Part shown: positions 1 through 49,590 of the stretch, in pieces
How the letters are laid out: every line of letters starts with the position of its first letter
Position numbering within the stretch: the stretch's first letter is position 1
Source: Magnolia sinica
Lineage: Eukaryota; Streptophyta; Magnoliopsida; Magnoliales; Magnoliaceae
Length of the DNA: 64,000 nt
Reading direction: 5' to 3'
Assembly: GCF_029962835.1 (NCBI RefSeq)
Contig: NC_080577.1
Coordinates: forward strand, 6,014,001 to 6,078,000
Notes under the pieces: model-generated
What the model was told of the DNA's origin: nothing
Database searches by the model: none
The model's input: the letters and a program-made list of their open reading frames with translations, nothing else
Position numbers and translations under genes: made by a program

Positions 1-110
1 ACATTGCTAATACCTGGAATTTTTTATACTACCAGCGTTATCGGTATCGCTACCGGTGTTATTGATATCGCTGAGCTGGAGATAAAGATATTATCGGAGA
101 TAATTTGAAC
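1..110 (+). repeat. remnant of a GATATCG-rich dispersed repeat
   Basis: The first 110 bases carry alternating 'taccggtgttattgatatcg' and 'ttatcggagata' motifs. The reverse complement of the same motifs occurs at 58,205-58,340 inside PYRB intron 2, so this is a dispersed element cut by the window edge. It lies in intron 2 of the Di19 gene. The class is unknown. Confidence 0.5.
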
Positions 111-158
111 ACCGGTTACATCATCTATGGACATACAAAAGGGTCAACGGAAAGATAT

Positions 159-162
<4 letters not shown>

Positions 163-201
<39 letters not shown>
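163..201. repeat. (GA)n microsatellite
   Basis: Uninterrupted GA dinucleotides over about 39 bases, followed by an A-rich tract, inside Di19 intron 2. Confidence 0.95.
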
Positions 202-203
<2 letters not shown>

Positions 204-617
204 AAAGGCTTTAGAATGAAAAATCATTCCTACAATTTCCCACTGAACAAAACAAAAAAAAAGGTATCCATGCAGTATCTCCACTTTGCAAACTTCCCGT
301 TAGCCTCAGTTCTATTTAGTTACCTCAGAAGATTTAGTGAACTTTTGTTACCCTTCAGTCTTCACCCATCGAGCCTCCAAAATACCATCCAAAACATATG
401 TGCCACATCAACAAGGATGCTCTACAGCGGTACCATACAACATAAATGCATAAATATTTGGTAAAATAGATACCTCAAACACCCAAATGAGAACTCGGAA
501 AGATGGTAAATAATCATCGGTTTTGCCTGCCAACACAAAGCCTCAGCGATCAACAGATCTAGGCTCAGAAAGAAACCATGTGATGGTCAGCCATTCACAT
601 AAAAAATCACTCATGGC

Positions 618-882
618 TTTCACGTACACACCTCTACTTGTGCAAATGTACCACCCAAATGGAACATTCTGATTGTAATGCCCTTGCAAGAAAATCAGGC
701 AAGTCCAACGATCAGATGGACAATGGTGTATTACGCACAATGGATGGTTAAACCATCGTATGGCTGGACCCGATGGATTGTTGGGTGGTCATCTTCATGG
801 TTTGAACCACAGGACAGACAGCTGAGATGCACTGCACGGATGCCATGTACGCACACGTAGAGGTGTGTGTGTGGAGGTAGGG
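618..882. repeat. small foldback element in Di19 intron 2
   Basis: Inverted arms 'cacgtacacacctctac' (near 620) and 'gtagaggtgtgtgtgtgg' (near 860) face each other over about 230 bases. It is short, not coding, and of unknown class. Confidence 0.4.
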
Positions 883-1155
883 TGATCGAGACATGTAGGA
901 TTAGCAAACCTCTCTTTTCCCACACTTGTAAATGAAAAATCGCATTTCGTCAAGATACTAGCTTTATGACCAAATCAAAGGAGATAACGATGCAATTACA
1001 GATATCTGATGTTGTTCCGATCATAACATTAAAATATCCAACAAAGAATTGCTAAATTGAAAAAATCAACAGAACCCAAATGATAAACAATGATTTTGCA
1101 TCATTTGAAGAAAAGGAAAGAGGATTTTATTTATTTATTTATTTATTTTACTCAC

Positions 1156-1501
1156 TGTGGCTTTGGATTCGGAAGGATGTTCCTCTTCGAGATGCGAGCA
1201 TAGAGAGGCGATGTCATAGTCTTCGTAGCAATAAGGGCAGGGGAGATCAGGCCGAGCCTCCTCTTCGACTTCAAAATCATCGATGCACAACCGATCTACG
1301 AACAAAATCAGACGAAAAAATCATCAGAAATGGGGAAAAGATCGGATTTTTGAAGATATCAGATGGACTTTCAAACCCTAGAAACCCTAACAGCAATGAA
1401 AAGGGGGGAGGAGAAGAACCTAAATGGGAGTTTTGGTGGTGCTGCAGCGAGTACTGCCGTTTTGCAGCAGCGAGGCGGGAATTCCAGAGATCAGAATCCA
1501 T
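1156..1501 (-). CDS. Di19-type (drought-induced 19) zinc-finger protein, N-terminal exons
   Basis: Two minus-strand exons encode the N-terminus of a Di19 family protein, a plant nuclear zinc-finger factor linked to drought, salt and ABA responses. Exon 1 is 1501-1420 (ATG at 1501, starting MDSDLWNSRLAAAKRQYSL), donor GT at 1419. Exon 2 is 1295-1156, after acceptor TAG at 1298-1296. The junction completes an Asp codon and both exons stay in frame for 74 residues. Seen directly: the acidic stretch DDFEVEEEA (33-41) and the first Di19 zinc finger, Cys47-x2-Cys50 with Cys60, His62 and His67. Known of the family: about 200-230 residues with a second finger and a C-terminal domain; both are missing here because exon 3 and later lie left of the window. 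The exon 1 donor (GTTCTT) is weak but gives a perfect family reading. No longer open frame covers this gene, so a scan by ORF length would miss it. Confidence 0.88.
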
Positions 1502-1855
1502 GGAAAATCGGAATACGGAAAGAGGATTCAAGAAATCTCGATTTCAGGAGAAAGGAGATGAGAGACGAACAAAACGCGATCGATATGGATCGAGATTCGA
1601 TCGCGATTTTATTCCTTCTTCTCTCTCTTTCGTTCTTTTGTATGGTTTTCCCGATTTCTGTTTGGAATTTTGTCTATGTTTTGATGTGATGATGATGGTG
1701 AATGGATGGAGATGCAGATTGGGACGTAGAGAGAGAGAGAGAGAGAGAGAGAGGTCAAAAATTAAATTTTAATTTGGGGAGAGAAGAGGGGGACCCGGAT
1801 GGACGCGGATTGTGTGCGACCCGAACCGCAGGAACTTCCCGCGGCCGGAAGCTAG
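1502..1855 (-). promoter_or_regulatory. Di19 5' leader and proximal promoter region
   Basis: This is the region upstream of the Di19 ATG on the minus strand. It contains a GA/CT microsatellite at 1728-1753 and pyrimidine-rich tracts on the coding strand typical of plant 5' leaders. I cannot place a TATA box or transcription start with confidence. Mutator-like foldback elements begin within about 350 bases of the ATG. Confidence 0.45.
1728..1753. repeat. (GA)n microsatellite in the Di19 leader or promoter
   Basis: About 13 GA units, reading CT on the Di19 coding strand, roughly 230 bases upstream of the ATG. Confidence 0.9.
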
Positions 1856-1864
1856 GTGGAGCCC

Positions 1865-2391
1865 GGACGTGGATTGCGTCCTACCCCTGCCCGGACCACA
1901 ATCCGTACGGTCAGGGCTCTGTGGGTACCACCGTGATGTAAGTGTTTTATCCACGCCGTTCATCGCTTTTCTCCTATCATTTTAAGGTACATATATAAAA
2001 TTGAAACGGGTCCACAGCTCCAGTGGACCACACCGGAGGAAGCTTCATTGATAATGACACCCACCATTGAAACCTTTCTAAGGGTCACCGTGATGTTTTT
2101 TTATCATCCAACCTATTAATAAGGTCATGTAGACGTGGATGAAGTAAAAAAAACAAATATTAGCTTGATCCGAAACTTCTCCAACTCCCAAGAAGCTTTT
2201 AACGGTGGAAATTAAATCCTTATTTTGTGGTCCACTTAAGCCCTATACCTTGGTCAATGTTTGTACCATATATTAAAATGATCTGAGAAAAGCGATTAAC
2301 GGCTTGGATATAACACTTACATCACGGTGGGCCCCATAAAGGCCTGCCCGACGGATGACTGTCTGGGCGGGGTTGGACGCACTCCGCGTCC
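1865..2391. mobile_element. Mutator-like foldback element, copy A
   Basis: About 527 bp that folds back on itself. It begins GGACGTGGATTGCGTCCTAC and ends in the near reverse complement (reads GGACGCGGAGTGCGTCC from the other side). Flanks are GTGGAGCCC (1856-1864) and GTCGAGCCC (2392-2400), an 8-of-9 match to a 9-bp target duplication as made by Mutator-like transposases. It is non-coding. Subterminal 'accgtgatgtaagtg' and 'cacttacatcacgg' are the inverted inner motifs. Confidence 0.8.
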
Positions 2392-2417
2392 GTCGAGCCC
2401 ACCGTGTCTGTGACAAA

Positions 2418-2943
2418 GGACGGGGATTGCGTCCTACCCGCCCGGACGGATTACCGTCCGGGTAGGGCTTTTTGGGGCCCACCGTGATGTAATTATTTTA
2501 TCCACGCCGTTCAACACTTTTTTCAGATAATTTTAATATGTGAACCAAAAAATGAAGGAGGTCCAAAGCTTAACTGGACCACACCAAAGGAACCTACACT
2601 GATAATGACACCCACCGTTGAAACCTTTCTGTGGGCCAACGTGATGTTTTTTAACCATAAAACCTATTCATGAGGTCATGTAGACGCGGATGAAGTGAAA
2701 ACACAAATATCAGCTTCATCTGAAACTTCTCCTGCTCCCAAGAAGTTTTTAATGGTGGACGTTCAATCCCCACTTTGTGGTCCACTTAAGCTTTGGACCT
2801 GCCTATTTTTTTGTTCCCATATCAAAATTATCTGAAAAAAGTGTTGAACGGCGTGGATAAAACAATTACATCACGGTGGGCTCCACAGAGCCCTGCCCGG
2901 ACGGATTACGGTTCGGGCGGGGGTAGGACGCGATCCGCGTCCC
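2418..2943. mobile_element. Mutator-like foldback element, copy B, with exact 9-bp TSD
   Basis: A 526-bp near-palindrome flanked by the exact direct repeat TGTGACAAA at 2409-2417 and 2944-2952. Arms start GGACGGGGATTGCGTCCTAC on the left and GGACGCGGATCGCGTCCTAC when the right end is reverse complemented. Inverted matching continues inward through 'tccacgccgttcaacac' / 'gtgttgaacggcgtgga'. It is the neighbour of copy A and almost the same length. This is the cleanest copy in the window and defines the family boundaries. Confidence 0.88.
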
Positions 2944-2959
2944 TGTGACAAATCCACGC

Positions 2960-3400
2960 GTCCGGACACGGTTTGGCTAGTGACTCTGCCAGTGGTCGGT
3001 GTCATGTGATCTATATGTTATCCACACCGTCCATCCATTTTTAAGCATTGTTTTAATAATTTATGCCATCAAAGAGGCAGATCAAAATCTCAGGTGGACC
3101 ACACCATGGGAAAACAGTAGTATTTGAAAGTCTACCATTAAAATCCTCTTGGGCACACTGTAATGTTTATTCGACATTATCTAGATTACGTCACACCGTT
3201 GTAACAGACCTGGACGAAAGGGAAAAAAGAAAAAAAATCAAATATCAAGTTTGATCCAAAACTTTTGTAGCACTGAGAAGTTTTTAAGGGTGGTAGTTTA
3301 ATCAATACTGTGTGGCCCACATTGAGATTTTGATCTACCTCAATTTTGAGTTCATACTATAGAATTTTTTAAAAAATAGATGTCGAAATTTGATTGGATC
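2960..3400. mobile_element. degenerate foldback element (same superfamily)
   Basis: Carries the family core ('ttatccacaccgtccatcc', 'aggtggaccacaccatggga', 'aaaacttttgtagcac') but the right arm is eroded. It is similar by eye to 38,085-38,545. Confidence 0.6.
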
Positions 3401-3680
3401 ACATGTTGCTATCAAAGATTAGATCATGGCCTCATTAAATTGGGTGCTTAATTAAATCAGGCCACGTTAGGTCAGCAAGCAATTAGCTTTCGTTGAAAGT
3501 TTTTAGTTGAGTAAATTTTCAATTAGACTTCTCGAGCAGCACCATATGGCTCGATCGATCCCACCATATTGGGTCACTATCAATATCCTCGTGACTACTT
3601 CACAATGCAATTCACTTTTGTATGATGGTGTAAATGAGAATTTCTTATATTAGTAGGGCGATCATACAACAAAGGGCTCT
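3400..3680. other. intergenic, nothing recognised
   Basis: AT-rich sequence with no coding frame, repeat pair or regulatory signature that I can support. Confidence 0.5.
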
Positions 3681-4135
3681 TTGGGGGCCAACATGAAATT
3701 TGTGTGACATCTACTCGGTACATCATTTCTATCATGTTATGATAAATCATGAGCATGAAAATCACGCTGACCTAGACATCAAGTGGGCCACCAAGATAAA
3801 AATAGGATGCTAGCAGTGAAACCTTCTTTGGAGTAATATGACGTCCACTGTTGAAACTTTCCTAGGGCTAGCCACGTTATTTATTTTCCATCCAACCTAT
3901 GTGGACCCGGATAAAGGGAAAAGACAAATATAAACTTGATCCAATACTTCCCAGGCCGCAGGAAGTTTTCAATTATTAGGGTTTAATCTCCACTACTTTT
4001 TTGTGGTGTAGTTTCTGGGAACTTTAGATCTTCTTTATTTCTGCTACCATTCTCTAAAATGATCTCCCAGAATGGATGAACAGTGTGGATATAGCACATA
4101 AATCTTGGTATGCCCACAAAATTTGGTAATGTCAA
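3680..4135. mobile_element. degenerate foldback element
   Basis: Family motifs: 'cctagacatcaagtgggcca', 'tgttgaaactttcctaggg', 'aaacttgatccaatacttc', ending 'gaacagtgtggatatagcac'. Ends are not sharply defined. Confidence 0.5.
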
Positions 4136-9247: not shown

Positions 9248-10470
9248 CAGGGGTCATTTGGCACCGTGGCTTGAGAGGATTGGAGGGAATTTGAGGGGGT
9301 TTCAAATCAGCATAAAGTTCAAAATCCCTCTTTTATGGGTTTGCAATCCATGCTGGGAGCTTGGATTACACTTATAAACATTTCAATAGTTGTAGGTGTA
9401 ACCTGTGTGTCACTATACACTATCATTCTATTGGGCACATGGCCCACTAATGATGATCAGCACCGTCCAAACATTGTCCATGTAAATCAGCACGCCCAAA
9501 CATTGTCCAACACCATCCAAACATTGTCCATGTAAATCTACGGTTAAAAATCATTGGTTAATCACACTTGACATGATCTTGTGCTTGTGGTAGGGTTGTA
9601 CACAAGCCAAGCTAGCTCAAAAAGCTCGTTCGGCTCAGCTCGATCTACCTCGACTTGACTCGGCTCGAATGATGACTCGAGGCGAGCCAAGCTTCAAATA
9701 ACCCAGCTCGTTTTGAAAACAAGCCGAGTTCGATCATAGTGGATCTTTTACTCGACTCGACTCGAACTCGGCTCGGCCCGAAGCTCGAGCTCGAACTTGG
9801 CTCGACTCAAATATATATTATATTATATATAATATATTATATTTAAAAATAAAAAAATAAATATTATATATATATATATATATTATTAATTGAATATTTG
9901 ATTTGGGAGTTGGGTCGGTGAGGGTTTGGTCAATTGAGTCGGGTGGCTAGGTTGAGTCGGGTGTCGATTGGGTCGGGTTGTTGGGTTAAGTCGGGTGCGA
10001 GTTGGGTCGGGTTGGGATCAAGCTCGACTCAACTCAAGGTAAGCTTGCCTCGACTCGATCCACTATCTCGACTCGAAATTTTTGGAAAACAAGCCAAGCT
10101 CCAATGGTAAGCTCGAGGCTGAGCTTGAGCTCGAGCTCGAACTCGAGGAGAGAACGGACGAGTCAAGCCAAGCTTGGCCCACCTCGACTCGATGTACAGC
10201 CCTAGCTTGTGGCCTATCCAAGACTTGAAATTTCATCATTTTCAAGTAAAGCATATATTCAGCAGGTTTATCACAACCATTGTGTCAAAAATTACATATC
10301 TCACTAATTAGAGATATTAAAGTTGATTTAGTAATTAAATTCAAACCCTTGTATATACCATGCATAGGTACTTTTGGATTAAAAGTTGATTCACACTCCC
10401 AGGTGCCAAACACACTAGGAGGATTTCAAATCCAGGGGGTTTCAAATCCACGCTCCCAAGCAGGCCCTTA
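9248..10470. mobile_element. older element split by a hAT insertion
   Basis: Left part 'gagggggtttcaaatcagc' with 'gtcatttggcaccgtggc', and right part 'gggtttcaaatccacgctcc' with 'aagcaggccctta', look like inverted ends of one element. The 614-bp hAT element at 9591-10204 sits between them. Boundaries are approximate. Confidence 0.45.
9591..10204. mobile_element. non-autonomous hAT element with 8-bp TSD
   Basis: Begins TAGGGTTGTACACAAGCC and ends with the inverted TGTACAGCCCTA. The exact 8-bp duplication GCTTGTGG flanks it (9583-9590 and 10205-10212), the size expected for hAT transposases. Subterminal regions are packed with 'ctcgactcg' and 'agctcgagc' repeats; the centre holds an AT-rich tract (about 9,810-9,890). 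It has no transposase and depends on one supplied in trans. Confidence 0.9.
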
Positions 10471-17329: not shown

Positions 17330-17884
17330 GAGCTTTGCAGATATAGGGAGCTACTTGGGGAGATTTTTGACAAGCTGTGTATGAATAGGGAGCTTTAAGA
17401 TTTCTAGTGATGGAAAGCAAGAGAAGGAGAAGCACATCAAAGTAGGAATGGTGGGCTGGGATTACGTGTTCAACTCCTCTTTAACAAGTAAAGAGGAGCT
17501 GTAATGGGCAACAATGGCAACCTGTGATTTTATTATTATTATTATTATTGCTTTTATCATAGTTTAACTCGTATTTTAGGTCACCAAATCTAAGCGATGG
17601 TGGAGTCAGTTACCAAAAATTGGATAAGGTGAGAGCGGGAGGGAGAGATGGTTGAGAATATATTTTTAATTTTAATTCAACGAGAGGGAGATGAATTGAC
17701 AAGATTCAAGTTCCAAATCTCGACTCTCCCTTATGTTTTCAAAATCGGTTGAAAATGAAGATTTTGATTATACTTTAGTCCAAATACACCTAATTATATG
17801 CTCCCAAGTGCACATCTTTTTCTTCAATGCCTTCAAATTTCTTCAATTCCAAGCTACCAACCACACCTTTTTTACTCTTCCACA
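17330..17884. other. intergenic, nothing recognised
   Basis: Only a short TTA microsatellite (about 17,531-17,549) and AT-rich sequence; no gene. Confidence 0.5.
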
Positions 17885-18302
17885 CTGCTATGCTTTGTAT
17901 GGATAAGGATTAGACTGCCCTCACCTAGAACGAGCTCCCTTCACCCCTAATGTGGTGGGATTTGATTGAATGGTAGGTTATTATAAGAGATGATGTTCGG
18001 TCAAGTGCATATAAGATCGAACAACTTTAAAACATGCTTTGTATGGGCTCCATTTCTGACAATGATCTGTCGTCCAATCAAATCTTGCCCTCACTACTAT
18101 GCTTTGTATGGATAAGGATTAGACCGCCCTCACCTAGAACGAGCTCCCTTCACCCCTAATGTGGCGGGATTTGATTGAATGGTAGGTTATTATAAGGGAT
18201 GATGTTCGGTCAAGTACATATAAGATCGAACAACTTTAAAACATGCTTTGTATAGGCTCCATTTCTGACAATGGTCTGTCGTTCAATCAAATCCTGTCAT
18301 GT
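17885..18302 (+). repeat. 209-bp tandem duplication, two units
   Basis: Unit 1 starts 'ctgctatgctttgtatgg' at 17885 and unit 2 'ctactatgctttgtatgg' at 18094, a period of 209. The units differ at only a handful of positions by eye (for example 'gtggtggga' against 'gtggcggga'). A third, partial match 'caatcaaatccctccacatt' lies near 18,424. Non-coding. Confidence 0.9.
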
Positions 18303-21269: not shown

Positions 21270-21745
21270 AGCGTACTAAGTAAATTTTGTGGGGTCCAAC
21301 GGGATTTATGTATTTTATCCACTCCGTCCGTCCATTTTAACAGATAATTTTATGCCTTAAACCTAAAAATGAAATATATCCGATCTCAAGTGGAACACAC
21401 CATAGGAAACAGTGCGAATTGAACATCTACAGTTGCAAGTTTTGGATAAATCTTGTATTTGTGTTTTCCCTTCATCTATGTCTCTTTGATCTTATGAATA
21501 GGTTGAATGAGAAATAAACATCACTGTGGCCCCTAGAAAGGTTTCAACGGTGGAAGTCATTATTCCAACTGTTTCCAATGTTACGGTCCACTTGATCTTT
21601 TTTTATGCTTAAATTTTGGTCTCAACCACTAAAATAAGACGGAAAAACGGATGGACGGCGTGGATGTATCAGATACATTCACGGTGGGCCCAAAAGAGTT
21701 TACTCCGTACGATAAGAGTGTACTGAGTAACTCAGTACGCAATCC
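21270..21745. mobile_element. foldback element in the OB-fold gene promoter region
   Basis: Arms 'ttttatccactccgtccgtc' and 'acggatggacggcgtggatg', ends 'agtaaattttgtggggtc' / 'gggcccaaaagagtttact'. It ends about 130 bases before the ATG of the OB-fold gene, so the promoter is partly made of this element. Confidence 0.7.
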
Positions 21746-21877
21746 GATTTCCCTCCTTCCCGAAAACCATACGTCCGCTCTCCTCCCCGAAAAGTCTCCT
21801 TCGGAAGGAAACCCTCGCCCGTCTCTCTTTTATTTTATCGGGTTTGGGTTAGGGTTTTTCAAGAGTTTAATTCCGCC
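21746..21877 (+). promoter_or_regulatory. 5' leader of OB-fold gene with telo-box
   Basis: Pyrimidine-rich leader immediately upstream of the ATG. It contains TTAGGGTTT at 21849-21857, the reverse of the plant telo-box AAACCCTAA often found in leaders of translation and replication genes. The initiation context CCGCCATGG is close to optimal. Confidence 0.55.
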
Positions 21878-24119
21878 ATGGCATCCACAGAAGCATCACA
21901 GCAAAGCGGCAATGGAGTTACGAAACCGGGCATGAGGAAGCCAGTGTTTACGAAGGCGGACCAGCTGAAGCCCGGCACGAGCGGCCACACCCTCACAGTC
22001 AAGGTCGTCAGCTCTAAGACGGTCATGCAAAAGGGCAGGGCCGCTTCTCCCCACCTCCGCCACACGCGCGTCGCCGAATGCCTCGTTGGCGACGAGACCG
22101 GCTGCATCATCTTCACCGCCCGCAATGATCAAGGTACCAACGCATGTCCATGCCTACATTCATGCATGCATGCCATGTATGTCACGCCTTCTTTGCAATC
22201 TTTGTCCTTTTCTCTCTTGATGAAACCCTAACCCTAGAATTATTTATTTAGTTACCTAATCTCAATTCCTGTGATGTTTGAAACACTAGAAAAACCCTAG
22301 TTTTTGGTAGTACGATCTGAGTGCCCTCCAAACCATTGTATAGTTTTCATCCCAAATTTACCTTCGTACTTGGGCCGTGCCTCCAAATGAAACGGAGACT
22401 GTGGCCTGACTTGTGTGGGTATGACGGCAGGGTAACTTTCGCTGCTCCAGAGCGAGAAATGGCGGTGACTACTCGAACATGCACATGGCATAGTTGTAGG
22501 GCAATCTTCACTGTCCAAATTTCTGACACAATCCAAAAAATTGCGCTGAGAATACCATACTCAACATCTGTTTTCCCTTAAAATTTGGACTGCTCACTGT
22601 TTTTTTTCTTGAACCATCCATATGGTAGCCATAAATGTATGGTTGGTATTGATTGATTAGAGTGATTTTAGATCTATGCTCCATGCACCATGGGACCAAC
22701 GATGGTCACCTCCATTTTCTAAATGGTGCAAAACTAACATTAAAGTCAAGCCCTTCATAAATTCATTCCCCCCCATGAGGCGGTGCATTGGCCGAAGACA
22801 TGCCCTCTGTGCCTACATGAGGTATGCTAGCACGGTCCGATAGAAATTAGGCTCTGGCTCAGCCTGTTTATTTGATGGGCCCGAAAAAGAGCCCTGAGCC
22901 TGGTCCACGGGCATGCAACTGCACTGCTGCAGCTTGTGATGGGCTTGGCACATGATCCCGATGGCCTGCCTGGTCCATTGACGGCTATATGTTGAACCCA
23001 AACTTGCTGCTATTTTGATTATGACATCTGAAACCTTAACTTCTGTTAGAATTTTAACTCTCTTTTCCCACTTCCAGTTGTTGGTGTTCACATGAGATTA
23101 TTTTTTATGGAATTTGTGAATATAACATGCTTTTTATTTTGTCAGTAGGAATGTTTGTTTCTAGATGTCGAAAAGGGCTTGCACTTCCTGCTTAAACCTG
23201 TCCTTCAATCCTGGACAGAAATGTGGTCAGTTTCCAGATTATGTTAAAATTATTTTCGTGTGCGTCTAAGGGCCTTAGCAGATGCTTGAAAATGAATTAA
23301 TCTCATTTTAGTTAATCATAATTATGTAGTAGAGATTGTGATAATTGGTTGCGAAGATTATTTAGTCCTTACCATAAAGAAATATGATCACATAATTACG
23401 ATTAACAAAAATGACGTGAAATTATTTTTAAGCGTATACCAGACAGGCCCTGCCACTTACTTAAAACTTTAATCTCAACTCATTTTAAGTGGCACCTAGA
23501 CAGGCCCAAGATGTAGTTGCTTTTGGGATTGTATAATCTGGTTTTGATTTTTGGGCCACAAGTATTTCTGTTCTTCAGGAGTTTTCCATGAAAAGTGAGC
23601 CTATGTTTGATGACCAATGATTGAATCACTGAAAGATGGATCTGATGGCATGCTTTTAAGTAGTGGTTTCTTAGTGGCTCGCCTGAAACCAGTATGACAT
23701 GCCCCAACTTATTCCACTTCTATTCTGTTTTTGTCCAGTGACTTGTTTCGTTGACTATGACACGGGAACTAGAACAACTCATCCAAGTTGACTTATCTAG
23801 GTTGCAGATGATGTTTAGAATGTGCATCCATCCAAAATGCTAGGCAAATGGAATTTAGGATAGTTGATGCGACCATTGTACAACACTTCTTTCTTCTAAC
23901 TCATAGTGATGTCTGTCTTTTGGGGCAGTGGACTTGATGAAACCGGGTGCTACTGTGATACTGCGAAATGCTAAAATTGATATGTTCAAGGGGTTGATGA
24001 GGCTGGCGGTTGACAAGTGGGGCCGGGTTGAGGTCACTGAGCCTGCTAAATTTATAGTGGATGAGGATAACAATCTGTCTCTTGTTGAGTATGAACTGGT
24101 GAACATTGTCCAGGAGTGA
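21878..24119 (+). CDS. OB-fold single-strand nucleic-acid-binding protein (At4g28440 / SOSS-B-like family)
   Basis: Two exons, 21878-22133 and 23929-24119, give 148 residues. The junction joins NDQ to VDLMKPGA and restores the frame exactly (donor AAG|GTACC, acceptor GGGGCAG|TG). The protein is one OB-fold: strand residues GHTLTVKVVSSK (about 36-47), RVAECLVGDETGCIIFTARN (about 64-83), VILRNAKIDMF (about 94-104) and a C-terminal KWGRVEVTEPA. Plant members are small, ubiquitous proteins related to human SOSS-B/NABP and thought to bind single-stranded nucleic acid; their exact role is not settled. Residues 1-20 (Ser/Thr/Gly-rich) are low complexity. The ATG is the only one in frame before the fold. 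The 1.8-kb intron holds a MITE. Nothing suggests inactivation. Confidence 0.93.
22134..23928 (+). other. intron of the OB-fold gene
   Basis: A 1,795-nt intron with GT-AG ends. It contains the MITE at 23,270-23,510; the rest shows no second coding exon. Confidence 0.9.
23270..23510. mobile_element. MITE in the OB-fold gene intron
   Basis: Left 'gggccttagcagatgcttga' with 'aatctcattttagttaat', right 'caactcattttaagtggc' with 'cctagacaggccc', imperfect inverted ends. A relative spans 25,496-26,050. Confidence 0.55.
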
Positions 24120-38984: not shown

Positions 38985-39052
38985 GAGTTACTCGCTGGCC
39001 AACCTGCGTTCCTCCGCAGACACGAGTTCCGTATAACCCCTCTTTACATGGA

Positions 39053-39057
39053 TCTCG
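39053..39057 (+). repeat. left TSD of the outer long LTR-type element
   Basis: TCTCG, repeated at 49147-49151 immediately after the element's last base. Confidence 0.85.
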
Positions 39058-39837
39058 TGTAAGACCCGTATTCTCGCCCGTACTGTTCCGTAAATTTTCA
39101 CGGTCCTCCCAGTCGAATTTCAACGACCCGCAGGTAGCATTTGCACACGCTCTTGAGTCACATCCTATAAACCCGAACTGACTCAAGCTGAGACCTATGT
39201 CATTGCGACCGCGCCGTTGCTGCGGTTCCGACGACACGTCTCGTGCGTCAATGCGACGCTCAGATTATGAGATCCGGCCCGTGCATTATCTCAGCCTTTG
39301 ATCGCTTGATCGCGGGACCTACCTATCCCTTTAGTTGTACTTTCCTAGAAACATAATTGCTATGATGTCACCCTAGGGGTGACATCACCCTACCCTACCT
39401 TAGCCATAACTCATAAATAACCACCCATTCCCTTTTCCCCATAAGTCAACTCATTAATTACCTATAAACCATCACCTCTCTCTCTCTCTCTCCTATCTCT
39501 CTCTCCCTCCCTCTTTCTTCCTCACTCTCTATTGCAAAAGCCATGGACGTCCAACCATCCCAAAAATCCAACCACCATCTACCTTAGATCCCCACCAATC
39601 CAACCTCTAGATTGTCATCTTCACCATTGAAAGAGCTTCATAGAAGCATTGGAGTATATGGGAAGAAGAAAAAGAGTAAAGTGGGTGATTCTCCTTCTCT
39701 CTCTCTCTCTCCCTTCTTCCTTTATTTTGTGGCCCACTCAATAAGATGTGATGTGTATTTGTCCATCAAATGGACCCTACGACCATCCAAGCCATGTGGG
39801 CCCTACTTAATGGTAATTAGAAAACATAAATATAAGG

Positions 39838-39950
39838 TTGACCCAAATCAAGTGGGCCATATCCATGTGGACCCCACACGTGGGACCCACCTTGAACCAT
39901 ATGTGTACATGGTTCGTCCAGCGTCCCTGGACGCTGGACGTCTTTCACAA
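39838..39950. repeat. short palindrome in the long LTR-type element
   Basis: 'gtccagcg' and 'cgctggac' separated by 'tccctgga' at about 39,917-39,941. The corresponding site in the inner copy (about 43,448-43,472) keeps it, and a shortened form occurs near 45,326. Confidence 0.6.
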
Positions 39951-40562
39951 GCATGAGCAACACTCTCAACAATGAGGGAGGAGAACTTTTGGGGCAGGCT
40001 ACTTATGTAGGCCCCACCTTGATGTAAAAATTGAATCCACACCATCCATTTCATTTCCAAGCTAATTTTAGGCGTTGAGCTAAAGAATGAATCCAATCCG
40101 ATCTTCTGGCGGGCCCCGGCAGGGGAAACAATTTTTTTTACCTTTAAGATCCATTAGGACCCACCTTGATGTCCCTACCCGTCAAAAACATACTGCATAG
40201 CGGACTCGTTTGATCCGTCTTAGGCCATAGAATACAATGGACGGAGTGGATTCTCAAGACACAGGCCCCACATATGAAAAACCTTAAAAAAAAAAAAAAA
40301 AAATCTAAGGCACGCTGCTGCAGCAGGCGCTGCTGACAGCAGCAGCGTGCGCGGGCGCTGCTGGTGGACGGACAGGCTGGCCTCACGGCCTTAGCCGTGG
40401 GCCCCATTGTGATGTGTTTCGAACATCAACGCCATGCATTTGATGAGTCCCCTTGGACCAGGTGGCTGCTCCAAAAATCAGCCGTATACGGAGCTCAGGT
40501 GGGTCACACCATCTAAATGTATGTGAAGTGATGCCTAGAACATGTAAAATCACTTGGTGGGG

Positions 40563-43500
40563 TGTCACGCCCCGAACTTGGAAACCGGGCTCACAAAATT
40601 CCCGATCGCCGAATCCGGCGCCGACAGCCTCCGTAGAACCCCATTTTCGGATCTCGGCACCCATTCACCAGGTTCCGATCCTGGGATACTACAAGGAGGA
40701 TTTCAAGTCATCAGTCTGATTCATAATGAGCATAACAAAAGCATAACCCACAAACAATAACCACAAGAACACCACCACAAAATCCACTATGATCAAAAAC
40801 TTTTGAGTACAATGCGGCAGAAAGGGCAAAATACAAGATAATGCAAAAGATAGAAACTCCAAAGCTCGTCTACACGCTCCTGCTGCTACTATGCTATGGC
40901 TGCGACTGCGTCCTGGCGTCACCTGCACGCATCAATCGTGCATAAGCTTATGGAAAGCTTAAAGGGTGGTGTAAGTGTGTGCGCAATATAAACGTGCTCA
41001 AAATGCAAGGTCAGAGTAATGCGGAATCATGGTGATGAGCACATGAATGCAATCAGCCGTATCAAGGCTATGCGGTGCAAGATATGAATGCTATCGGCCA
41101 TAACACAGCCATGCGATGCGAGATGCAACTCAAGCATGCCAATCCTCATCATGTATCAGTACAGTTCTCATTCTGGATAATCACCGGGGTTCAATACACT
41201 CCAAATGGCACTGCCACTCTTCTAGCCGCACAGTCCAAGTGAGCGTAAGAAACCTCACTATCCGCCTGGCCAATAGTCTGCCAATACCTATCCGGCACGT
41301 CGATAATGGACTCATTCACGAGCTGGTCAAACTCAGCCTAGTATTGGCCCTTACTCTTGGGCGAGTAAGGCCACACCCCTTTCCAACCGACCACGACACG
41401 GTGGGAGACGCGGCCTCCTCTGGTATTCGGCCCTCGTGCGCTCATATTTCCACTCGGTCTCGACATTGGAGTCATCCTCTCGGTACCATCGGGTTTAGGG
41501 ATTTTCACCCAGGGACGTCTATGGCGCCCGTATGCTAGTTCCCAAATATTTCGGTATCCAATCTCACCATCCACGATGTGTCTGGTTGAGGCTATGGCCT
41601 TGATGTCGCTAGGGCATACAAGAATTACAATCACACAAATGAAAGTGCAAGAGTCACACAAACACACATGCAACAGTCCTGTATATACCATGCACTTATA
41701 TGAGGCAACTCCACCTATCAGGGAGCCCATAAATGGTCTATCCAAAGGTATATGCTATGATCGGTCACTCCTCACATCAGGCATACATATGGTGCGAATG
41801 ATCATGAATCATGCATCTATACTAAACATGTAATAAGAGATGGGTTCTAGGTATAATGGAGATGGGCCTAGACGGCCTACTTACCACAAGTTTGGGCCTA
41901 TCAGTGGGCCTTAGGGAGAACTATAATGCGGACATTTAACCAACATTATCAATGTGGACGTCAAACCAGCATTACTCCCAAGGCGTGGCCCGTTACAAAA
42001 TCAACACATATACCATGGCGGAATTACACTGCAAGCATGGGCCTATCAGTGGGCCTTATGTGTGTCCTATTGGGCCTTGACCTATGGGCCTCCAGCACAT
42101 CAAATGGGCCCCATACATAGGTCTCATATATACATATCAAGGTGGGCCTCAATGACGGGCTACACATGCATCAACATGGGCCTAGTCACATGGGCCTTGC
42201 GTACATTACAATGGGCCTCATAATATGGGCCTTATACAAATCAAGGTGGGCCTCAACAAGGATCACCAGTACATGAAGATGGGCCTCCACAATGGGCCTT
42301 AAAATATCTCAAAAATGGTTGGATAGTCGAATGAAACACATGCATCCTGATGGAGCCCACACCAATGGAGGGTGTGGTTTACAATACTTACATAAGTGGG
42401 GCCCACCATGATGCTTATTTTTCACTCAGCCTAAGGCCCAATATAATGTTTATTTTCCACCCAACTTAAGGCCCAACATAATGTTTATTTTCCACCCAAC
42501 TTAAGGCCCAACATAATGTTTATTTTCCACCCAATTGTTCATAAAGCTACTTGAACCAAGGTAGGGCCCACTGGACTGGGCCCACTGGAATGTTTATTTT
42601 CCACCCAAACTATTCATAAGGTCACACGGACCGTGGGTAGGGCCCACCGTTATTTTTTTTGCATCCCCAGTACACGGTCAGGGAACCCACCGTTATTTAT
42701 TTTATTTTTATTTTATTTTATTTTATTTTACACATGGATAGGGAGCCCACCGTGATGTGGTCCACAATCCAGCCCACTCATTATGTGTGTCCCACTTGGC
42801 TGAGGGTACAGACCAAGTTTCAGTCGCATCCAAATTTCAGGTAGGCCCCACCAACGATTTTATATATTTTAGGCATGACTACACATGATTTTAAATGATG
42901 TGGCCCACCAGAGTTCCATATACAGCTGACTTTTGGCGTGGACGGATGAACTGTGGGGACCCATCAAATGCTCGGTGTTGATGATCGAAATTCATCACCG
43001 TGGGGGCCCACAGCTGGAGCCGTGAGGCCCCAGCGTCCGTCCGCTCGTCACTGCAGCAGCAGCAGCGCTGCTGCTTTAAAAATTTTTATTATTATTATTT
43101 TTTTTGTTTTGGGGCCCACCGAGATGTGATTCACAATCTAGCCCACCCATTATGTGTATCCCACTGTTCTACCCGTCCAGAACTAGTTTCACCTGCATCC
43201 AAACTTCAGGTGAGTCCCACCGAGTACTTTTTATGATCTGGCATGTCTTCACATAGTTTTAGATGGTATGGCCCACCTGATGATCAGATCACCTTAAAAT
43301 TTTGGCTCAACGCCTAAAGAAGACTGGAGATAGATTGGACGGTGTGGATCACATACATACATCAAGGTGGGGCCTGCATGGGCAGTCCACTAAAAAGTAA
43401 CTTTTTCTTCCCTTTTTTTTTTTTTTTCTAGCCATGCCTTACGCCTACGTCCAGCGTCTCTGGACGCTGGACGGTTGGATAAACACTGCCTCATGGTGGG

Positions 43501-44558
43501 TCCCACGCGTGAGTGGCCCATGTTCATCAAGGTAGGTCCCACATGATCATGGCCTACCATATATATAAATATTAATAAAATATTATAATATATCATTTAC
43601 TCTAAATAGGGGGGGTGGATCTTTCCTAAAATGAGGTGGGCCACCCTATTTGATGGATGGAGTAGATTTAATATATTGGTGGGGCCCACTTCATTCTGAG
43701 GAAGAGAGAAAGAGAGGGAAAGAGAGAGAAATAGAGAGAGATACACGGTGAGATAGAGGAGGGACCCCGCCACTATGGGCCCTCCATTTCATACATGCAT
43801 ACATCAAACGGGTCCCAACACATGTGGCCCAAAAAAAATAGGAGAAATGACGGTGGATCACCCATCTTATCTTTCTTCTCCTTGCTCCCTTGGCTTCAAA
43901 TGCACCTTGCCTATGCCTTGGATGGTGGATGATGGGGGATTAATGGTGTGGATGAGAGATGGGAGGGTGTAGATGGACAATGGAAGGTGGACCACACTTG
44001 AGAGGGAGATGGGAGCTTAGACGTATGAGGCTTGGGGTTGAGTTGCTTGGGAGAGATATGAGAAATGAGAGAGAGAAAGAAGATATGGATGGGTGAGGTG
44101 AGGTGATGGAGTGATGGGTTGGGTTGAAAAAATTGTAAAGGTGTATGGTTGTTGTTGAAATTTGGAAAAGAGGAGTGGTGAGGTGGAAAGAATGGTGGAC
44201 TTTTGGAAAAAAAGGGAATGGGTATAGTACTTGATGTATGGGATGCATTAAATGTTGATTGATGGGACTTATTGCGTAGAGATTCCCTCGAAATCCGCAA
44301 CGCGCGGTGTTTCTTCGGAATAAACGCTGATCGGCATCTTCTTGCCTGGGTATCGGTTCGGTGCGCAAGTCACGGCGTTGGAACCGCGGCGACGACGCGG
44401 TCGCTATGATACAACTTTCGGATCAAGCCGACGTCGGTGCGCGGGACCTGGCCTAGGATCGTGCGCAAATACCGGATATGGTGCGAAGGTTGCCGGAATT
44501 TGACCGGAAGGACTGCGGAAGCTAACGGAACAGTACGGACTAGGACACGGGTCTTACA
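40563..44558 (-). mobile_element. inner antisense copy of the same long LTR-type element
   Basis: Read on the minus strand it begins TGTAAGACCCGTGTCC at 44558 and ends GGGGCGTGACA at 40563, the same termini as the outer copy. The exact repeat TGGGG flanks it (40558-40562 and 44559-44563). It is 3,996 bp. Matches run along its length: its start against 39,058-40,560, and its end against 44,564-49,146. When it and one TSD are removed, the outer sequence joins 'acttggtgggg' to 'cctatctgaaatttgg', which is exactly the order seen uninterrupted inside this inner copy near 42,865. That internal check supports the insertion model strongly. No coding capacity. Confidence 0.85.
42421..42540. repeat. 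short tandem repeats, unit about 36-40 bp
   Basis: Three to four copies of 'aaggcccaacataatgttta' followed by 'ttttccacccaactt' in the inner element. The outer copy has related, diverged units at about 44,740-45,010. Confidence 0.8.
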
Positions 44559-45447
44559 TGGGGCCTATCTGAAATTTGGATGCTGCTGAAACTTGGTCTG
44601 AACCCTCAGTCAGGTGGGACACACATAATGGGTGGGCTGGATTTGCGAACCACATCCCAGTGGGCCCAGCTTTCTCAGGTTCACGAGAATTTTATTTTTT
44701 ACAGGTTGGATGTCAGACAAATATTGCAGTGGGCCCCCTAGTCCAAGTACCCTTTGTACATGTTGTGTGGCAAATATACATTACTATGGGCCAGGTCACG
44801 TGCAACCTTATTTTGGGCAGAAAATAAACATTACAGTGGGCCCTACCCTGGTCCAAGTGACCTTATGAACAGTTGGATGGCAAATAAATATTACAGTGAG
44901 CCCAGGTTGGGTAGAAAATAAACATTTCAGTGGGCCAAGTCAGGTGGAAAATAAACATTACTGTGGCCCCAGGTCTGAGTGACCTTACCAATGGGTCGAA
45001 TGGAAAATAAACATTATGGTAGGCCCCTCATGGGACCCATGTTTACGAAGTGGATTGGCTGAAGTACCGTGTACAGTAGCTCTGCAGCTGCTGTATTAAC
45101 ACCTGCAAGTTCAGTGGGTCTGAACATGAGGCAAGTGTTATATCTAGTCTATCCCGCCGTGGACTCCAATTGCTGCTGTATGAGATCCAACCGTCCATCA
45201 GCAGCTGTAGCTGCTATAAGACCTCAGTTCTGTGGGCCCTAATCACAAAATATATGTGTGGTGGGTCCCACACGTGTGGACCCACCTGGCATATATATTT
45301 CATCCTGATCATCTGTTAAATGACGTCCAGGGCTGGACGTTTGCATGAATGGTAATATATATGTATATATGTATAAATAAATATGCGTGGTGTATATATT
45401 AATATAAACATTATATCTGGTGGTCCACACCACATGGTCCTAGTTGA

Positions 45448-45452
<5 letters not shown>

Positions 45453-45508
<56 letters not shown>
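45453..45508. repeat. (GT)n(AT)n compound microsatellite
   Basis: GT dinucleotides to about 45,480, then AT dinucleotides to about 45,507, in the outer LTR-type element. Confidence 0.95.
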
Positions 45509-45513
<5 letters not shown>

Positions 45514-46069
45514 TATCTAGTGGGTCACACCACGTGGCCCCACCTAATGTATATGTTTCACCAATCCCATCCACCGCCCGGACCCTTGGACGGTGGGATT
45601 CCCATGATGTATGTGTTGTACATACATGTTGTCCAGTACGTGGAGCTCACGCGTGATGTATCTGTTTTATCATAGCCTTCCACCATTTGGATGATGGGAC
45701 ACCACCATGAGATATTTGTTTAATCCATACTGTCTGGAATGTTTGGACGGTGCTAGACTATGTTTGGGCGATGCTATGGACCACACCATGTTGTATGTAT
45801 TCCACCCACAACGTCCACCTATTTTGACGGTGCTGTACTGCCATACCGTGATGTGTTTGTTTCATCCACACCATCCAAATAGTGCTGGACAGTGCTGGAC
45901 AATGTTTGGATGGTGCTGATCTACTTGGAGACTGTTTGGATAGTGCCGATCATCATTAGTGGGCCATATGCCCCATAGAATGATGTGAACAGTGATACAC
46001 ATGATGCACCTGCTACTATTGAGATGATTTCAGATGAAATCCAAGCTCCCACTTGTGAAGCCACTTTGA

Positions 46070-46510
46070 TATACTTGCGGCCCATTTGTGAGGCCCATCT
46101 TGATATATTTGTAGCCCACCTATGAGGCCCATTAGTGCGGCCCATATGAGGTATGTGAGGCCCATGGTTGTGGCCCATTATGATGTGTTTGTGGCCCATT
46201 CGGTAATGCCCATTGAGATGTATTTTCGGCCCATGGGTTGAGGCCCATTGTGACATATTTCTGGCCCGTATGTCAAGGCCCATTGTGACATATTTCTGGC
46301 CCGTATGTCGTGGCCCATTGTGATATGTTTCCGACCCATTTATTGAGGCCCGACTTGAATTGCATGAGGCCCATTGGTGCGGCCCAATGATGCGACCCAC
46401 TGAGATGTGTATATTAGTCCCAATGGTGCGGCCCAATGTATCGACCTACCGTGATGTGTAGGCCCACGTGCTGTATGTGTAAGGCCCACCTGTGATGATT
46501 ATTTGAGGCC
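46070..46510. repeat. degenerate 'ggcccat' tandem array in the outer element
   Basis: About a dozen or more units of roughly 25-40 bp built on 'gaggcccatt' and 'gtgatatatttgtggccc'. The inner copy holds far fewer units at about 42,035-42,300, so array expansion explains part of the length difference between copies. Confidence 0.75.
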
Positions 46511-49151
46511 CACTTGTTGGATATTTGGGCCCACCTTATGTTTGATTCTATGTGGACCACTCCTTGGGAGCATTGTTGGTTAAATGTCCACATTGCTGGG
46601 CAGTGATGGTTAGATGTCCACATTGTGACCCTTCCTTAGGCCTTATCAGGCTCATTCTCCTCATTCTCTTAGTGGGTTAACCCAAATAAGTGGGCCCCAT
46701 TTATCTCGGACGGATGGCTCCATGCTACCAGATTTGATATAACCACGGCCGAGGGCTAATCTTTATATTATGGTTGATCGGATGTTCATCTATGGACCCA
46801 GTCTTGTCTATATGACCGGTCGTCGGTGTTGATTATCGATGCTGATTGTCGGTGCCAATTATCGATGTAGATTATCGGTGTCGATTTGTCGAGACCGATT
46901 GTATTGGCCGGTTCCGATGCCGATTCTGAGTATCGAATTCGATTGCCAAGGCCGATTGTCGTGACCTATATGATGTATATGCGACCCGTAATTGAGGCCC
47001 AATGAGATGTGTATTCGGTCTGCGTAATGTATATGCAGCCCGTGTTTAAGGCCTAATACGAATAGGAGGTCTACGTAATAAGGCTCATTGTGATGTGTAT
47101 TAGGCCCATGATACATGACCTATTTGATGTATTCGAGACTCATGTGTAGGGCCCATATGTCATGTATTTGAGGCCCATGAGCAGGGCCCACTTATTGCGT
47201 ATGTGTGTCCCTTGAATAATGCTCATTGTGTTGTATATTAAGCCTTTATGTAAGGCTGTGGGCCCATTATCTGTTTGGCCATGGGTCCACTATTCCTTTG
47301 GGGACAATGTTGGTTAAATGTCTACATTGTTGTGATTGATGGTCGATGCCGGTTATTGATACCGATTATGAGTATGTGACAGCATAGCATCATGATACAT
47401 GCCCATATGCATCATCTGCATGTTTGTTATGAGATGTGGTTGATCATTGCATATGTCATTGAGCATGTTATGAGACTCCCTGATAGGCGGAGGTTATCTC
47501 ACATGAGCACGCGGTGTGCGTAGGATTGATGCATGATTGGATTGTATGACTCATGCATCTCGCATTATGATTACCGTACGCCCTAGCGACATCAGGGTCG
47601 TAGCCTCCACAGGCATATCGTGGATGGCCAAATGGGACACCGAAAATGTTTGGTTCTAGCATACGGGCGCCATAGATGTCCTTGGGTGAAAATCCCTAAA
47701 CCTTCGTGGCCAGGAGACGCCCCAACGTCGAGACCGAGTGGATGCATGAGCGCCCGAGTGCCGAATACCAGGAGGCCGCGTCTCCCACTGTATCGTGGTC
47801 GGTTGGGAGGGGGTGTGGCCTTACCCGCCCGAGGGTAAGGGGCAATACTAGGCTGAGTTTGACCAGCTCGTGAATGGGTCCGCTATCGACATGCCGGATA
47901 GGTATTGACAGACTATTGGTCAGGCGGATAGTGAGGTTTCTTACGCTCACTTGGACTGTGCGGCTGGGAGAGCGACAGTGTCATTTGGAGTGTACTAAAC
48001 TCTGGTGATGATCCCAGAGATGAACTGTACTGATATGTGGATCTAGTGAGTAGGAGTTGCATACTCATTCATGCATTCATTCATTCACTATCTACTCGGG
48101 TTGGTGGTACGCAACTAGTTGTTACGTGTGCCTTCGCAATGACCATGATTTCGGTTGGGGCGCGCGACTAACCTGAGATCAGGAGTTTACCACATTGAGT
48201 CTGACTATCCAAATTTAGGTATGAGACTGGTTTGGATAGAAGTCCCTTGTGATGGACCCCATAGCCTGCGATACTACGTACTACCATCCCGACTTCATAC
48301 TCCAGCATGTTCATTCCATTCGCACCACATATTGCATTACATCCGCGGCATATGACATTTTGGGTTACTGTGCTTCTGCATTTATATGGTCTAGATATGA
48401 CTGACATATTTGTGAACACATAAGGAATTATATACTCCATTGCATTCTTGGCATTTGATATTTGGCTCTTTATGACTCCTCGTTTGCATAGCTGTTATAT
48501 ACTGTGTATTCTGATATTGATTGGCTCATGGACTTGTTCGTATTTCCGCTTACTCTGTTATCGTATGATTTATGATCTTGTGAGTATTTCTGTTTACTCT
48601 GATAATTCCTGCTCTTGTCAGTATTTCTGCTTATTTAAATAATTTATGATCTTGCTAGTATTCCGATATTGTACGATTTGTGGATTACCGGTATTTCCAG
48701 TTTGTATGATAATGGCATCGTATTGAATACTTGGCACTTACCTTGTGCACACACTTACACCACCCTCTAAGCTTTCTATAAGCTTATGCACGATAGATGC
48801 GTGCAGATGATGATAGGTTGCAGCAGTGTTGAGCTTGGAGCGTGTAGCAGTCCTCTGGAGCTTGATTTTTTTTATTTATGTATTTTTCTTTCAGTATTGT
48901 ATTCAAATGTTTATATTAGTGGATATGTGATGATGATGTTGTCTTTGTAATTTGGGTATACTTGTGATTATGCTTATTACGAGTTAAATGTACATTGGAA
49001 AAAAAAAATCCTCCTTGTAGGATCCCAGGATCGGAATCTGGCGTATGAACGCTAGGAGCCGAGAATGGGGTACTACGGAGGCTGTCGGCACCAGATTCGG
49101 CGATCGCGATTCCTATGAATCCGATTTTCGGGTTTGGGGCGTGACATCTCG

Positions 49152-49590
49152 TGTATCCCAAGACCTATGGGGCCCACAGATATGAACATACTAGATCCAT
49201 TCCGTCCATCAGTTTTATTATATCATGTTAGGACGTTAGTTCACAAACGAGGTATATCCACCGTTAAAGCGAGCACAGCGGGAAATGGTATGACGAAGAC
49301 GTGGATAATTGATACCCTTCTAGGGCTCACTGTGATCTTTATACGTCATCCAATCCGTTCATCGGGATGTAGTGAACTATTAATATTATTTGAATTCAAA
49401 CCTTTTGTGGTGCCCAATTAGGTTTCAATGATAGGCCGTCGATCACTGTTGTTTATGTGGTGTGGTGTGGTCTACTTGAATCTTGCATCTGTCTAATTTT
49501 TGTGACCACATCGAAAATATTGAAAAACTGATGGACAGAGGAGTTCAGAAGAAAAATCTATGTGGCCCAACAGAACTTACGCGGATTGGT
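49152..49590. mobile_element. foldback element next to the long LTR-type insertion
   Basis: Arms 'tccattccgtccatcagttt' and 'aaaactgatggacagaggag', ends 'tatggggcccacaga' / 'tgtggcccaacagaa'. It is adjacent to the outer TSD. Confidence 0.6.

Follow-up and report, generated by a model that had tools for sequence, protein, structure and literature searches.

Two nested, probably solo long terminal repeats of a Ty3/gypsy-like family in Magnolia sinica and a related form with a very short internal region

For non-coding long terminal repeat (LTR) elements two groups are usually named, the large retrotransposon derivatives (LARD) and the terminal-repeat retrotransposons in miniature (TRIM), as set out in PMC7215508. 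Solo LTRs, i.e. single LTRs with a target-site duplication (TSD) that are left after recombination, are reported across the plants surveyed in PMC7251063, and the same survey gives a median LTR length of 552 bp for 25,144 elements of 15 plants. The LTRs of beet Tekay elements measure 2.6-2.7 kb (3.0 kb if an insertion is counted in) and rank as the longest among the beet chromoviruses tabulated in PMC3605345. Here we describe a nest of two units that are about 7 times (inner unit) and 11 times (outer unit) longer than the 552-bp plant median of PMC7251063. The nest occupies positions 39053-49151 of a 64,000-nucleotide stretch of Magnolia sinica, called the window below (assembly GCF_029962835.1, NC_080577.1; C5:6014001-6078000 in our contig labels). 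We read both units as solo LTRs, each the remnant of an element that inserted and then collapsed, and assign them to a single high-copy family of the Ty3/gypsy type that is probably a chromovirus; we put the probability of this reading at about 0.92. The genome searched for relatives comprises 1,838,573,281 bases in 127 contigs.

Structure of the nest

Each strand of the window has the start motif TGTAAGACCC once (at 39058 on the plus and 44549 on the minus strand), and the same is true of the end motif GGGGCGTGACA (49136 on the plus and 40563 on the minus strand). The units delimited in this way, and the features within them, are as follows.

39053..39057, no strand: TSD of the outer unit, left copy, TCTCG (exact flank match)
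39058..40562, plus strand: outer LTR, very probably solo, left arm (5' part), whose final five bases form the target site TGGGG (terminal motif, TSD)
40558..40562, no strand: TSD of the inner unit, left copy, TGGGG (exact flank match)
40563..44558, minus strand: inner LTR, very probably solo, in antisense, with a length of 3996 bp (a relative of the coding form's ~4-kb LTRs; 95% to the 3' LTR of an element on C14)
44559..44563, no strand: TSD of the inner unit, right copy, TGGGG (exact flank match)
44559..49146, plus strand: outer LTR, right arm (3' part; copies on C4, C1 and C15 match it at 96-98%)
49147..49151, no strand: TSD of the outer unit, right copy, TCTCG (exact flank match)
41154..41813, minus strand: core of the inner LTR, the stretch best conserved (79% in an alignment of 666 columns with the outer LTR)
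47391..48035, plus strand: matching core of the outer LTR (alignment to the inner core)
42400..42534, minus strand: 35-bp tandem repeats with the motif GGCCCA (plus-strand reading) in the inner LTR (repeat analysis)
46048..46351, plus strand: degenerate 33-35-bp tandem repeats with the motif GGCCCA in the outer LTR (repeat analysis)

An earlier note, made from the letters of the window, had proposed one LTR family nested in itself in opposite orientation, with common unit ends and a separate 5-bp TSD for each copy, and the measurements bear this out. The terminal motifs match exactly at the positions noted, the flanking 5-mers are exact in both cases (TCTCG/TCTCG around the outer and TGGGG/TGGGG around the inner unit), and the sizes, which had been put at about 4.0 and 6.1 kb, come to 3996 bp for the inner and 6088 bp for the outer unit if the duplicated TSD is counted once (the outer arms are 1505 and 4588 bp long, with one TGGGG copy in each). 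The joined outer arms were aligned with the reverse complement of the inner unit, as the note had suggested. The best chain is collinear and runs from unit base 1 to 3996 in 10 blocks of 67-85% identity (1362 bits, 2297 of the 3996 inner bases covered); the reversed inner unit, used as a control, gives 0 matches. Additional matches lie outside the best chain, which is expected because both units carry tandem motifs. The outer junction has its uninterrupted equivalent in the inner unit as claimed, though at unit positions 1709-1713 (window 42846-42850), about 15 bp away from the place given for it (near 42,865).

The likeness runs from end to end and is nevertheless patchy, the best-kept parts being the ends and a core of about 650 bp (79%). 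In other words, the outer and inner units are one family in two diverged subfamilies and not near-identical copies. The core of the inner LTR (41154-41813) is possibly the promoter/R region, and the LTRs may have grown by the spread of a minisatellite motif of about 35 bp.

The units hold no recognisable gag-pol, in agreement with the earlier note: none of the 15 open frames of at least 90 aa inside them has a Pfam match at the curated cut-off, the best E-values being 0.04 and 0.047.

The motif GGCCCA/TGGGCC has a density of 6.4 per kb in the outer and 8.3 per kb in the inner unit, whereas the remainder of the window has 1.1 per kb and base composition predicts 0.2-0.4. A repeat shared with the outer LTR is also seen outside the nest, at 9354-9519, where an antisense match of 81% to 45886-46051 is found.

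Complete relatives and copy number

The nucleotide searches of the genome gave 12,469, 6,038 and 5,053 first-look candidates, and the best 40 of each were scored. Paired direct LTRs around gag-pol, for which a search had been proposed, were found for the subfamily of the inner unit, where LTRs of about 4.1 kb enclose a gag-pol region of 4.9 kb. At C14:33489001-33504000 two LTRs of about 4 kb lie around 4.8 kb with a primer-binding site (PBS), a polypurine tract (PPT) and decayed gag-pol, and the 3' LTR is 95% identical to the inner unit. The PBS motif of this element is TGGTATCAGAGC, which we take to be complementary to the initiator tRNA-Met. Two of six decayed gag-pol pieces have a Pfam match at 0.001, one of these under its cut-off, and three other pieces gave 0 matches at E up to 1. 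The C14 element is framed by a direct repeat of 284 bp (99.6% identical; L029:479-762 and L030:5115-5398), as if by a larger duplication.

A copy that extends from LTR to LTR is found at C1:36331451-36344529 (L063); it has the TSD CTGCA, its LTRs measure 4126 and 4060 bp, and the region that they enclose measures 4893 bp. Its frames match Retrotrans_gag, RVP_2, RVT_1 and SH3_Tf2-1, i.e. the order is gag-PR-RT and then SH3. In a second pair on the same contig (45243257-45256286, L064) the PBS is exact, and the frames add RT_RNaseH, Integrase_H2C2 and rve (rve under its cut-off) in the order gag-PR, RT, RH-INT-SH3. The Ty3/gypsy order gag-PR-RT-RH-INT is thus found in the coding partner, in broken frames. 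The family is best read as a Ty3/gypsy retrotransposon, and probably as a chromovirus. A Chromo match (PF00385) follows SH3_Tf2-1 in a 120-aa piece (E 1.2e-4, 22.3 bits; curated cut-off 25.1) and recurs in the trimmed tails of two copies (E 2.4e-5, 24.6 bits, and E 0.011, both under the cut-off); in the longer gag-pol frames PF00385 is not listed at 0.001. The Tekay clade name is offered as a lead, suggested by LTR length.

A second, non-coding form has LTRs of about 6 kb and an internal region of about 390 bp. The nearest complete and nearest short-internal relative found for the outer unit is the element at C4:23960475-23973020, referred to as C4b, with LTRs of 6058 and 6089 bp, the TSD GGTAC and 399 bp between the LTRs that include PBS and PPT. 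Its LTRs are 98.3% identical with gaps and 99.3% without (Kimura two-parameter distance, K2P, 0.0068). The 5' end of the internal region (PBS, 5' untranslated region) and its 3' end (tail of pol, PPT) match the gag-pol form, and gag-pol itself is absent; LTR ends, PBS and PPT are common to the two forms. To this extent the note's option of an undescribed coding-free family holds, since a coding-free form exists in the family; the window units themselves are best read as solo LTRs.

When the internal region of C4b was used as genome query, 39 of the best 40 of 3,717 candidates (itself included) covered at least 396 of the 399 bases, and one covered 372. Twenty of the 39 other places were fetched together with their 60-bp flanks: the PBS core is exact in 18 of them, GAGAGC is present in 19 (by eye) and TGTAAGACC in 16. 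The 21 aligned internal regions, C4b included, show no gap run longer than 9 columns, with a median K2P of 0.07 and a maximum of 0.16. A strict PBS-gap-PPT-LTR pattern is found at 76 places on 18 of the contigs C1-C19 (none on C13), and its control gave 0. Seven short-internal loci were inspected for outer ends; besides C4b, end sets were fetched for six, with both ends located on C5, C10 and C19, the right end only on C9, and the ends on C1 and C16 outside the fetched stretches. All four elements located at both ends have 5-bp TSDs (GGTAC, ATTAA, TAAGG and CCTAA) and LTRs of 6058-6211 bp, and over the five measured loci (C4, C5, C10, C19, C9) the LTRs are 5.8-6.2 kb long. At the C9 locus (69768225-69780298) three LTRs alternate with two internal regions (LTR-internal-LTR-internal-LTR), an array of the form that unequal recombination would be expected to give; the LTR lengths given for it are 5848 and 5836 bp. 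On C12 two short internal regions (27276419 and 27282420) are 5.6 kb apart, and LTR length is not uniform.

The LTR-start pattern has 3,889 exact places in the genome; the reversed pattern, like the control of every other genome pattern, gave 0 hits. At 4.0-6.1 kb per copy this corresponds to 16-24 Mb, or about 0.8-1.3% of the genome, a rough figure in which mutated starts and other subtypes are uncounted and truncated copies are counted whole. The GAGAGC of the PPT precedes 529 of the 3,889 starts and is missing before 3,360, so that by estimate solo or broken LTRs outnumber full elements about five to one, assuming that each full element gives one start with and one without PPT. The earlier note had thought two solo LTRs in one nest notable; this is not supported, since solo LTRs dominate genome-wide and two of them in one nest are therefore expected, with no need of a special explanation. 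Among starts of the inner type (...GTCCTA) 434 of 2,699 follow the PPT, i.e. about 4 solo or broken LTRs per full element, and among those of the outer type (...ATTCTC) 1 of 49 follows GAGAGC, namely C4b. The two shares differ with Fisher p = 0.0045, a guide only, as related copies are not independent events and exact matches only were counted.

The genome contains three more copies of the left arm of the outer unit, at 95-97%. In two close siblings of this unit, too, there is a single LTR, and inspection by eye gives the TSDs as GCCCC (C4) and AAAGT (C1); the C1 sibling has one changed base in the terminal motif. A sibling on C15 (97-98%) is split by an insert of about 12.5 kb (L021:5142 to L022:7683) that has no match to the LTR queries.

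Origin of the nest, alternatives and other content of the window

Each unit in the window has the marks of a solo LTR: a single LTR between matching TSD copies, not followed by a PBS and not preceded by a PPT. Of the options in the earlier note, solo LTRs of unusual length is the best reading, as other places in the genome have LTR pairs with these ends around PBS and PPT, directly for the inner type and for the outer type only through C4b, at partial identity. A complete outer-type element would have inserted at TCTCG and then shrunk to one LTR of 6.09 kb by LTR-LTR recombination; an element of the subfamily with ~4-kb LTRs would then have inserted antisense into this LTR at TGGGG and have collapsed likewise. 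The outer unit was probably already solo when the inner element arrived, because recombination across an LTR that bears a large insert would tend to lose the insert. Both the collapse and the order of the two collapses are what we infer from the arrangement. The lost outer element may have been of the 390-bp type, this form would move with proteins supplied by the coding form, and a short spacing between very long LTRs, i.e. the ratio of LTR to internal region, could favour collapse.

The K2P distance of the outer arms to the two siblings is 0.013-0.020, and that between paired LTRs is 0.007 in C4b and 0.030 in the C14 element. With the intergenic rate of Liriodendron, 1.51e-9 substitutions per site per year (PMC6784881), these correspond to rough ages of about 4-6.5, 2.3 and 9.8 million years; LTR-based ages can be distorted by gene conversion, as pointed out in PMC7251063.

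Several observations weigh against the solo-LTR reading or against parts of the picture built on it. The collapse in the window is deduced from the window itself and from copies at other places in this one genome, and the starts without PPT include 5' LTRs and broken elements, i.e. the solo counts are estimates. The likeness of C4b to the outer unit is 93-94% in the first ~650-670 bases and falls to about 85% in the final 2.9 kb and to 67-78% in the remaining matching blocks. LTR length was measured in only five short-internal loci, and of three short internal regions on C7 (28756267, 28759989 and 28779944) two are only 3.3 kb apart, so shorter LTRs also occur. As to the coding form, the C14 element has lost both outer ends (~188 bases at the start of the 5' LTR and ~125 at the end of the 3' LTR), L063 has one base changed in the PBS, and the 5-mers that flank the second C1 pair do not match. 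None of the three gag-pol copies examined has unbroken frames, so that there is no intact helper among them, and the chromodomain match is under the curated score in every gag-pol piece searched.

The strongest competitor concerns the source of the outer unit, which could derive from a coding element with 6-kb LTRs, the short-internal copies being a side branch. We consider this unlikely, although C4b, the sole exact outer-type start after GAGAGC, is no near copy of the outer unit. The search turned up no coding element whose LTR has a start of the outer type, and the single one among the 49 exact starts that has a PPT is C4b, in an exact search that misses a changed PPT or start.

Two further proposals are very improbable. 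The first is that the units are complete single-unit mobile elements of an undescribed coding-free class. Both window copies and the two outer siblings are indeed single units with TSDs, and all outer-type starts except one lack the GAGAGC. This proposal is largely refuted by the direct pairs that have the same ends, with a PBS just after the first and a PPT just before the second copy, which makes them LTRs by definition; TG...CA ends and 5-bp TSDs also suit an integrase of the retroviral type. No better placed is the proposal that the short-internal copies arose one by one through deletions in coding elements and are not a replicating form. It would account for the homology of the internal region to both edges of the coding one, but all 21 aligned internal regions have the same form, the strict matches are spread over 18 contigs, and the four elements located at both ends have distinct TSDs. 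An origin by chance, by tandem or segmental duplication or through an assembly artefact, for which the local matches of the GGCCCA tandem motifs might speak, is refuted by the empty controls (alignment and genome patterns) and by copies on many contigs, and its probability is negligible.

For the window as a whole, Rfam at the gathering threshold gave 0 matches and the tRNA search none. Two Rfam matches at E up to 1 over 39000-49200 both lie across the TG/TA repeat at 45454-45516, far under the gathering threshold, and were set aside as low complexity. Outside the nest, an exon-like frame at 56832-57470 matches the N-terminal domain of aspartate/ornithine carbamoyltransferase (PF02729, E 8.7e-21), a frame at 21731-22228 has an Ssb-like OB fold (PF21473, E 4.3e-21), and 17880-18296 contains a direct tandem duplication of 208 bp (95% identity).

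Comparison with known systems

The core domain of a LARD is large, i.e. it measures kilobases. The Magnolia short form resembles LARDs such as Sukkula in being a non-coding LTR element with PBS and PPT that is presumably moved in trans; it differs from them in that LARDs, as described in PMC7215508, have a core domain, and the internal region of about 390 bp is not a large one. With TRIMs such as Cassandra, described in the same source, it shares the near absence of an internal domain between PBS and PPT and the occurrence of LTR-internal-LTR-internal-LTR arrays, as at C9. TRIM LTRs are short according to PMC7215508, in contrast to the 5.8-6.2 kb of the five Magnolia loci.

The coding form seems most like the Tekay/Del chromoviruses, e.g. 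Bongo of sugar beet as characterised in PMC3605345: both have a 5-bp TSD, a PPT adjoining the 3' LTR, the order gag-PR-RT-RH-INT, long LTRs and a PBS of the tRNA-Met type (in Magnolia presumably so). The differences are LTRs of about 4.1 kb in the coding and about 6.1 kb in the short form, a PBS motif that starts 5 bases after the LTR, as against up to 3 in beet (PMC3605345), and a sub-threshold chromodomain match.

One plant survey, as its settings are given in PMC6317226, took LTRs of at most 6,000 bp with at least 1,000 bp between them and dropped elements without polyprotein, and the Magnolia short form would lie outside these settings. Among the open-licence full-text papers listed, judged by titles and the beginnings of abstracts, we recognised none on LTRs of about 6 kb around an internal region of about 0.4 kb, which is weak evidence of absence. 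The gag-pol subfamily (LTRs of ~4.1 kb, 4.9 kb between them) and the non-coding one (~6.1 kb and 0.39 kb) have related ends and share one genome, and for this reason they offer a natural test of how LTR length and spacing affect the formation of solo LTRs.

We incline, with some reserve, to the view that the short form is an undescribed non-autonomous architecture, the converse of a LARD and likewise no TRIM: LTR sequence would make up about 97% of it (two GGCCCA-rich copies of ~6.1 kb), with an internal region of ~390 bp that goes back to one ancient deletion of gag-pol, and a lineage of its own that depends on partner proteins and collapses to solo LTRs far more commonly than the coding form. 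The nest itself is ordinary, and it is this combination of giant LTRs with a minimal internal region, fitting neither LARD nor TRIM, that sets the family apart.

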